64,000 nucleotides of DNA from Marvania coccoides (Eukaryota > Chlorophyta > Trebouxiophyceae > Chlorellales > Chlorellaceae), in assembly GCA_963854735.1 (NCBI GenBank), contig OY978107.1:751501-815500 (forward strand). The letters run 5' to 3'. The notes below the pieces were generated by a model. It did not search any database and was not told where the DNA came from. It saw only the letters and a program-made list of their open reading frames with translations. The position numbers and the translations under genes are program-made. How positions within the stretch are numbered: position 1 is the stretch's first letter; each line of letters opens with the position of its first letter. Shown here in pieces: positions 14,882-17,582 of the stretch.

Positions 14882-17582
14882 ATGAATGATCTCCTGGGTT
14901 TGGTAAAGGTAAACTCCACATTCCCATCCCCCGACCGCACGCTATACCCTCGATACCACCCCAATCTACACTCTGCCCCCCTTTCCACCCCCTCAACCCT
15001 CCCATTTTCTCACCGTCTTCGATTTTCCCTCCTCCCAGAGCGACGCACAGCCGCACCGCTCCCTCCGCACCATCCACTCCCCCAGCAACGGCGGCGGCAC
15101 CCACGATGTGGAGGCCCCGCCCCCTGACCCCGCAGATGCCCGCTCCCCTGACCCAGAGATGGATAAATTCTTCGCTCAGGTGGCGGAGATCAAGGTAGGT
15201 GGTTGTTTCCCTTCTTTTTTCACACCTATAACGAGTTTTTTCTCTCTCTCTTTTTCTTTTTTCTAGGAGAAAGCGATTCCCTGTATTTTTTTCTTGATCT
15301 CCTCGAGCTTCTTGCCTTGATTTGATTTTTTTCCTCTTGGTAATAATTCCGACAGGCGCTGCTGCTGGAGGTACGGACCCACCACAAGACCCTGGAGGAG
15401 GCGCACGAGCGCAGCAAGACGGTGACGCGCAGCGCCGACATGCACGTGCTGCGACAACAGATGCAGGAGGAGGCCAACACCATCTCGCGAGCAGCGGACA
15501 AAATCAAACGCTTGCTGCAGGTACGAAACTGTGGGGAAATTTTTTACTACAAGTTTACAGGTTTATAGCGGCAACCATCCTGCGCGTTGGGAGTCTTTCC
15601 AGTCTTGGCATGGATAGTTAATGAATTGGGGTTTGAGGGATTTTTTCCACCGGAAAAAAACAAATATTCCAATTGTGACTGACTGCGAGGGCATATTAAT
15701 CCCCACCAACCCGTGTAGGAGCTCGACCGCACAAATGAGCAGTCGTTGAAGCGCAAGAACTCGGGGCCAGGCACTGCCACCGAGCGAACGCGCTCTGCGG
15801 TCACCGCCGCCCTTAAAAAGAAGCTCAAGGAGCTCATGGGCGAATTCCAGAGCCTTCGCACCCGCGTGCAAAAGGTACGAAACCCAAACCACAATCTCCC
15901 CCCTTCAGCCCCCTTTATTTGGTTGTTTTTTTCTCTAAACTCACCGTTGTACTCAACCGGCAATATCTCAAAGAATATACACCCAAATCACACGAAATTT
16001 ACACCCGAATTCATCATTTTCCACTCCTCTTTCTCACACATGCACTGTTTGCCTCATTTTCTATCGACCAGGAGTACCGCGAGGTGGTGCAGCGGCGGGT
16101 GTTCACAGTGACGGGGCAGCATGCCAGCGAGGAGGAAATCGACCGAATGATCGATAACGGGGAGGCGGAGAGCGTGTTTCAGCGCGCCATACTGGAGCAG
16201 GGCCGTGGCTACGTGCTGGACACCCTGGAGGAGATCAGGGAGCGTCGTGATGCGGTGGTGGAGCTGGAGGCGAGCCTGATGGAGCTGCACCAGATCTTCC
16301 TGGACATGGCGGTGCTGGTGGAGGCGCAGGGGCAGATGATCGACAACATCGAGGCGCAGGTGCGTGCTTTGAGGGCTGTATTAGACATAAACAACACATG
16401 TTTGGTTTTTTGTTATTATGTTGACGAGCAATCAATTTGAAGTGGATTGTATCCTGTTTTTTCGTTCCGCGTTTCTTTCACACGCCTTCTTTTGGTGGGA
16501 ATACGTCCATACTAACAGCCCACAAAACTTGCATTGCTGCGGTGTTGCTTTTACGCCCAAACACACTTTCTAATAATCCTCTCCCCTGCCGCTCACCTGT
16601 CCAATTTTTTGCTTACTTTCTTCCCCCCTCCCACCGCCATGCCCCTTGCCCAATGGTACCTGCAGGTCGCTCGCAGCGCAGAGTACGTGCAGTCAGGGGT
16701 GACGCACCTGCAATCGGCAAAACAAGCTCAGCGCAAGTCAAGGCGGTGGATGTGCTGCGCGATCGTCATGGGGCTCATCATCCTCATCGCGGTCATCATC
16801 GCATCAGTGGGCATCGTCAAGGGCTTCTAACTGATGGGTTTCTTCCCCTTTTCCTCCGCCTGCCCTCTTGTTGCTCCGCGAGGAAAAGGTTCACCTCTTA
16901 TTTGGTATTCGCCGCCTTTCACTCGCTTCCTGTCTTCGTCCCTGAACTTGACTATCTCCTTCGGTCAGCCATCGCACCCCTCTCAACAGAGGAGCTTCTT
17001 GTCTTCTTTCTCTTTGCGTTTAATTCTGGCTCTCTCACTTTTTCCTGCTTTTTTATTCGCTATGGCTATGACGTATTTTGGACCCACCTTCTCACAATGC
17101 TTACTTGTGCTTTGCATTAGACTGATTCAAAATTATTTATGCTGTCCACATCTCACTCTACTCGTGCAAAATCTTAATCTCCGACAGTACCGCCCAGAAT
17201 CTAACAGCTTACCCATGCCGGGCGAAGCCCAGGCCATCACCGCATTGCCTGCAACCTGCATGGGGATCCCACCCCCCACGCCACCGCCTTTCCTTCCCAA
17301 ACACTTCAGCGCAATATTTGTTTTGGCGCTGTTTCAAGCGCTCTTCGGTGTTTTTTTCTCCACATACCCAGTGTTTTAATCCGCATCCTTTCCTCTTTCC
17401 TATAAACACGGTATCCGCAGATTTCTCGGTCCGTGGCCTATGTGGAGGTGGGAACGAGCCACCTGGTGCAGGCAAAAATGTACCGAAAGAGATCCATGCG
17501 GTGGCTCTTCTGCAGCCTCTTTGCGCTCATCATCGTCATCGCCATAGTCGCCGCTGTGGTGGCAGTAACGGCCACAAAGTAG
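14882..17582 (+). CDS. Qa-SNARE syntaxin (SYP1-like) with two tandem alternative last exons
   Basis: Common exons 14882-14908, 15039-15194, 15356-15520, 15719-15874, 16072-16359, then last exon A (16666-16830, TAA) or B (17421-17582, TAG). With A the product is 318 aa. It has an N-terminal Habc helical bundle and a SNARE motif whose central Gln lies in [16 protein letters not shown]. Exons A and B both begin in phase 0 after a good acceptor (CTGCAG/ and CCGCAG/). Each encodes the same module: the end of the SNARE helix (VARSAEYV / ISRSVAYV), a basic linker (RKSRRW / KRSMRW), a transmembrane helix and a stop. They are diverged copies, about 13 of the first 31 residues being identical by eye. 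A second gene fragment cannot be excluded, but B has no upstream exons of its own. This would be a plasma-membrane-type fusion receptor with alternative anchors. Confidence 0.93.
17421..17582 (+). other. Alternative terminal exon B of the syntaxin gene
   Basis: An open 53-codon exon starts after GTATCCGCAG and ends in TAG. It encodes Arg-Ser-x-x-Tyr-Val, Gly-x-x-His-Leu, Ala-Lys, Ser-x-Arg-Trp and a hydrophobic anchor, position by position parallel to exon A 590 bp upstream. The membrane helix is richer in Ala/Val and ends TATK instead of VKGF. Confidence 0.8.

Follow-up and report, generated by a model that had tools for sequence, protein, structure and literature searches.

In the green alga Marvania coccoides, a single SYP1-type Qa-SNARE gene probably gives rise to two proteins by means of mutually exclusive last exons. 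The five exons that both proteins would share are followed by two homologous terminal exons, A and B, which lie in phase behind a single splice donor and each of which completes the SNARE motif and adds a membrane anchor.

Structure of the gene and identity of its predicted products

The window, i.e. the whole stretch of 64,000 nucleotides that was analysed, comes from contig 11 in a genome of 22.46 Mb and 15 contigs. A search for in-frame GT/AG splice sites placed five shared exons on the + strand between positions 14882 and 16359, with lengths that are all multiples of three and junctions that are all in phase 0. Exon 1 (14882..14908, +) encodes MNDLLGLVK, a syntaxin start, and several database relatives of the syntaxin, among the best 120 of 999 matches, also begin with MNDLL. 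The Habc domain begins in exon 2 (15039..15194, +) and extends through exon 3 (15356..15520, +) and exon 4 (15719..15874, +), as judged from a match to Pfam PF00804. Exon 5 (16072..16359, +) encodes the end of Habc, a linker and the SNARE motif's first half, in which alignment with syntaxin-1A locates the central Gln (layer 0). For exons 1 to 4 several options are open as to the splice sites, and we chose those that give the fullest protein in agreement with relatives; this choice leaves exons 5, A and B untouched.

Exon 5 ends in phase 0 at base 16359, where the residues EAQ are followed by the donor gtgcgt, so that the preliminary description had rightly placed this junction after the half of the SNARE motif that holds the central Gln. 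The predicted intron from exon 5 to exon A is 306 nt long (16360..16665, +) and the putative intron from exon 5 to exon B, if A is skipped, 1,061 nt long (16360..17420, +). Exon A (16666..16830, +) is preceded by ...cctgcag, begins in phase 0 and encodes 54 amino acids before a TAA stop, and exon B (17421..17582, +), preceded by ...tccgcag and likewise beginning in phase 0, encodes 53 amino acids before a TAG stop. Both supply layers +3 to +8, a basic linker, a juxtamembrane WMCC (A) or WLFC (B), a transmembrane (TM) helix and the stop. When translated, the two full-length joins are free of internal stops and yield predicted proteins of 318 (isoform A) and 317 (isoform B) amino acids, which bears out the earlier claim that each exon is in phase and provides the same complete module. 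Pyrimidines make up 64% of positions −25 to −4 at the acceptor of A and 59% at that of B, compared with 64-86% at the gene's other acceptors.

TGTAA is the usual polyadenylation signal of green algae. Neither TGTAA nor AATAAA nor ATTAAA occurs on the + strand between 14800 and 18000; separate poly(A) sites for A and B are therefore putative, and the syntaxin gene may not use the TGTAA signal. A protein kinase gene (PF00069; 17952-19246, +) appears to start about 370 nt past the stop codon of B, so the 3′ UTR of B is probably short or overlaps the kinase gene. Upstream, pieces of an alpha-SNAP gene (PF14938; 13529-14533, − strand) form a head-to-head pair with the syntaxin gene (14882, +), with apparent start codons about 0.5 kb apart, and a common promoter region may serve both the SNARE and its disassembly adaptor.

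The N-terminal peptide, the Habc domain and the first half of the SNARE motif, which are common to both isoforms, are predicted to be those of a Qa-SNARE of the SYP1/syntaxin-1 type. Against Pfam Syntaxin (PF00804), the full-length predicted proteins scored 162.8 (A) and 160.7 bits (B) over residues 47-208 (cut-off 26.7), and against Pfam SNARE (PF05739) the terminal exons, joined to the shared exons, scored 54.6 (A) and 38.0 bits (B) (cut-off 26.8). Taken alone in a genome profile scan, exon A reached 42.3 bits and exon B 26.1 bits against PF05739, the latter slightly below the 26.8 cut-off. The solved structures nearest to isoform A are syntaxin-1A chains, followed by others that include Sso1/Sso2, and the alignment with syntaxin-1A runs through the central Gln. 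The sequence features of a Qa-SNARE are present, namely Habc, a SNARE motif that has the central Gln and the hydrophobic layers, and a C-terminal TM anchor, a layout that resembles that of plant and green-algal SYP1 (SYP13-type) Qa-SNAREs; present too are the two homologous in-phase terminal exons behind a single donor. The gene product can thus be classed, by its sequence, as a plasma-membrane-type, syntaxin-1/Sso1-like SYP1 Qa-SNARE. At E≤1, SNARE profiles matched at least 10 places in the genome, two of which are A and B; the others we read as one SYP2-, one SYP3-, one SYP4- and one SYP8-like Qa-SNARE and four Qc-like proteins. The gene described here appears to be the only one of SYP1 type in the genome, though a diverged copy could be missed.

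Likeness and divergence of the two terminal exons

Alignment marks exons A and B as homologous. They are identical at 20 of 53 aligned residues and their alignment score of 101 lies above those of all 2,000 segment-preserving shuffles (mean 17.2, sd 8.1, maximum 58; 0/2,000 reach 101), which upholds the residue-by-residue likeness reported at the outset. A tail profile was built from 88 green-algal and plant tails; P0035 and P0102 were left out of it, as were six read-through proteins and any rows rejected by the motif or hydrophobic-run filters. It gave 78.5-80.8 bits for A and 54.8-55.2 bits for B. Among the 1,906 six-frame ORFs of at least 20 amino acids in the window, A was found with E 2.3e-23 and B with E 6.1e-16, and none of the others passed the inclusion threshold (next E 0.21). 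A third tail exon, considered as a candidate, was rejected, as the profile shows none above threshold in the window.

The preliminary description had the two exons differing in their SNARE layers, and here it was wrong. With the layer register of syntaxin-1A, which agrees with the present alignment to that protein, the layers after the central Gln read V, S, V, G, L, A in exon A and I, S, V, G, L, A in exon B. Five of the six layer positions are therefore identical, as against 3 of 12 non-layer positions of the helix: layers +4 to +8 agree throughout, and only layer +3 differs, with Val in A and Ile in B. On this table the idea of divergent layers was rejected, and with the layers nearly identical the suggestion that they would confer different partners is unsupported. 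At layer +3 all 88 relatives carry Val, B alone having Ile. Because the layers are almost the same, an identical complex core and a different helix surface are expected of the two isoforms.

The linkers of A and B are equally basic. Exon A has two juxtamembrane cysteines, as do 71 of the 88 relatives, and exon B has one, as do 16 of the 88. The hydrophobic spans, chosen by eye, comprise about 23 residues in A and about 24 in B, with a mean Kyte-Doolittle value of 2.98 and 2.80, respectively; in the luminal half of the anchor the mean residue volume is 132 in A and 117 in B, the residues of B being smaller. Of the anchor differences claimed earlier, that in composition accordingly holds, and that in length, at about 23 versus 24 residues counted by eye, is marginal. 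Anchor physics was also tried as a predictor of compartment and rejected, the genome's four other compared Qa anchors being too few for a membrane to be assigned. Between A and B, dN/dS (NG86) is 0.66 (0.70/1.06), only mildly below 1; this value indicates no strong purifying selection and is a weak point for B.

Tails of related syntaxins

A search of the protein database, in which 8,000 candidates were scored, returned 999 matches at E≤0.001, the best 120 of which were used in the later comparisons. Among these 120, the best named matches come from Parachlorella, Micractinium, Chlorella and Auxenochlorella, all Chlorella-group green algae, and include the 'Putative syntaxin-131' of Auxenochlorella. 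Right past the EAQ junction, 26 of the 120 proteins become non-homologous, each continuing with V; it looks as though the relatives, too, carry an intron after EAQ and the gene caller read into its GT. The MMETSP transcript protein P0086 is likewise non-homologous past this junction, which suggests a retained intron in the RNA of that alga.

Several relatives suggest that the two-tail arrangement may extend beyond M. coccoides. The EukProt gene model P0035 contains a shortened A-like tail followed by a second complete tail, which would point to two tail exons in the DNA and not to their use, the model being otherwise faulty. Two Coccomyxa proteins, P0021 from C. subellipsoidea and P0025 from Coccomyxa sp. 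Obi, show 98% identity over the last 200 residues that they share and 55% in the tail, with the divergence beginning one residue beyond the EAQ junction; the tail of C. viridis P0020 is of the Obi (P0025) type. The 10 pairs with bodies at least 95% alike had a mean tail identity of 90 and a minimum of 55. In a table of body and tail identities covering 90 of the 120 listed proteins, less similar pairs gave body/tail values of 86/45 (P0087/P0107) and 90/56 (P0042/P0059). Tails evolve fast in general, and the Coccomyxa contrast is the sharpest and not the sole one. In EukProt, P0054 and P0057 from Chrzof1, which we take to be Chromochloris, bear the names UNPLg00212 and UNPLg00216 and differ in their tails, which suggests nearby syntaxin genes and hence a duplication of genes, not of exons.

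Direct searches added no further cases. Tail B, a short and insensitive query, yielded 46 candidates in the protein collection, none at E≤10, and a composite of the second tails of P0021 and P0035, equally short and insensitive, yielded 899 candidates and two matches, both to their source proteins. Viral and prokaryote contig collections gave 24 and 150 pattern matches, respectively, and no DNA of a relative, as expected for a eukaryote.

Trees were computed from hand-picked rows with a preference for named species (31 rows for the body, 33 for the tail), and a FastTree tail tree from 92 tails. In the body tree (quick tree), M. coccoides groups with the transcriptome protein P0013 (97), within a 13-row group (96) that also holds Parachlorella, Chlorella, Micractinium, Auxenochlorella, Prototheca and Helicosporidium. 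In the 33-row tail tree, exon A joins Auxenochlorella, Prototheca, Helicosporidium, P0022 and the first tail of P0035 (91), and exon B falls into an unresolved set with Chlorella, Micractinium, P0013 and P0079 (84); the second tail of P0035 and the tail of C. subellipsoidea are placed elsewhere than B. The FastTree analysis put the second tail of P0035, P0021 and B in one set with Chlorella tails (0.883). None of six AU clade tests on the tails, which offer about 55 columns and have long branches, was significant; A and B may thus be simple sister copies (AU p 0.318), and their separation in the tail trees is a hint.

Proposed choice between two last exons and its meaning

We propose that the single donor of exon 5 serves two competing acceptors. 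Joining of the donor at 16359 to the proximal acceptor at 16666 would produce isoform A, and skipping of A, with the same donor joined to the distal acceptor at 17421, would produce isoform B; the stop codon in A makes the two exclusive. This proposal builds on features read from the DNA, namely the gene model with its phases and stops, the homology of A and B, the preserved layers and the TM helices, and it presumes that both junctions are spliced in vivo and that each isoform has its own 3′ end. With their inward-facing layers preserved, both isoforms would form the same core SNARE complex and would differ in helix surface, in S-acylation potential (CC versus a single C) and in anchor packing. 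They might then reside in different membrane domains or compartments or fuse membranes with different efficiency, as animal anchor variants do. Two Qa-SNAREs with a common Habc domain and different anchors, as first put forward, are the best reading of the anatomy, expression of both being a prediction.

Alternatively, protein A alone might be made, exon B being a silent or fossil copy of the last exon that has stayed intact by chance or lost its use recently; we consider this unlikely. The tail-profile score of B below that of A (55.2 vs 80.8 bits), its Ile at layer +3, a position that is Val in all 88 relatives, the dN/dS of 0.66 and the lack of a recognisable B tail at E≤10 among the 46 candidates all agree with silence; yet the acceptor, phase and stop of B are all intact, its layer positions are selectively preserved, and two tails or an abrupt tail switch occur in other green algae (P0035, Coccomyxa). 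Simulation of neutral decay also speaks against it. Exon A was mutated without selection or indels in 1,000 replicates per distance, with a bar of 54.7 bits. None of the 1,000 replicates run at each of 0.46, 0.70 and 0.92 substitutions per site (0/3,000) reached the bar, and stops were present in 822, 856 and 890 of 1,000, respectively; at 0.20 and 0.30, 39 and 3 of 1,000 were both stop-free and at or above it. Distances of 0.46 and more are fair because A and B lie about 1.06 apart at synonymous sites, a divergence of which B is assumed to carry about half or more. Neutral decay of B is therefore disfavoured, and since exons of the quality of B survive solely at 0.20 and 0.30, only a recent silencing after constraint would fit. 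A tandem duplication that left B as the last remnant of a second syntaxin gene is very improbable. Exons since lost would have had room in the 590 nt separating A from B, but the window holds no further syntaxin-tail-like ORF above threshold; in the genome the exon 5 protein finds, besides its own locus, a single further SNARE locus, on contig 2; and B lacks a separate upstream body and has an acceptor of the same phase as that of A.

Species-specific usage, in which two ancient tail exons were inherited and some algae use A and others B, one of them being minor in M. coccoides, also strikes us as doubtful. The 33-row tail tree agrees with it, in that A sits with Auxenochlorella, Prototheca, Helicosporidium and the first P0035 tail (91) and B in the unresolved set with Chlorella, Micractinium and P0013 (84), and the FastTree tail tree splits similarly. 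Set against this are the mere 55 or so columns, the meeting of long branches and the absence of any significant AU test, the placement of the second P0035 tail and the C. subellipsoidea tail away from B in the 33-row tree, and the tail of P0013, which by raw alignment score is slightly nearer to A (116 vs 107). A broader idea is that the two anchor exons predate the diversification of the Chlorella group and were kept as a switch, with lineages relying on A or B, in convergence on unc-64 and STX3; a unicellular alga that has one SYP1-type Qa-SNARE gene would in this way obtain two syntaxins through splicing. We offer it tentatively, as possible, and rate it no higher because those same two tails do not group with B in the 33-row tree.

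For alternative splicing of the last exons, the preferred reading, animals offer precedents. In C. elegans, the alternative terminal exons 8a/8b of unc-64, a single syntaxin gene, are described as altering the C-terminal hydrophobic anchor, and mouse Stx2 isoforms as differing in their membrane anchor (PMC4946901). The algal gene resembles unc-64 in that alternative end exons of one syntaxin gene change the anchor; unlike in unc-64, the predicted swap extends beyond the anchor to the linker and one half of the SNARE motif, and it concerns a green alga. Vertebrate STX3A and STX3B, the latter mainly retinal, differ in exons 9-10, whereas in the alga one exon is the whole module. We found no report of alternative anchor exons in plant or green-algal SYP1 genes in the open-access literature, and the algal syntaxin is probably a separate instance of alternative anchors of the unc-64/STX3 type. 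It is possible that A and B are directed to different target membranes or microdomains. Animal work indicates that a length difference of one residue between anchors can sort syntaxins into separate domains (PMC4313621) and that the juxtamembrane segment controls palmitoylation of the TM cysteines of STX1A and thereby spontaneous fusion (PMC9183232). By analogy, we infer that such effects of anchor and palmitoylation may carry over to the alga.

Animals diversify their syntaxins also through alternative anchors. In land plants, the diversity of plasma-membrane syntaxins comes from gene duplication. If both exons are spliced, green algae would have evolved anchor switching independently, and in a genome that is small and in which one SYP1-type gene was found. 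The gene would then be a natural experiment in which anchor and helix surface are exchanged and the layers stay the same, making the role of the anchor in SNARE sorting and fusion directly testable, and models of algal syntaxin genes may record only one of two real ends.
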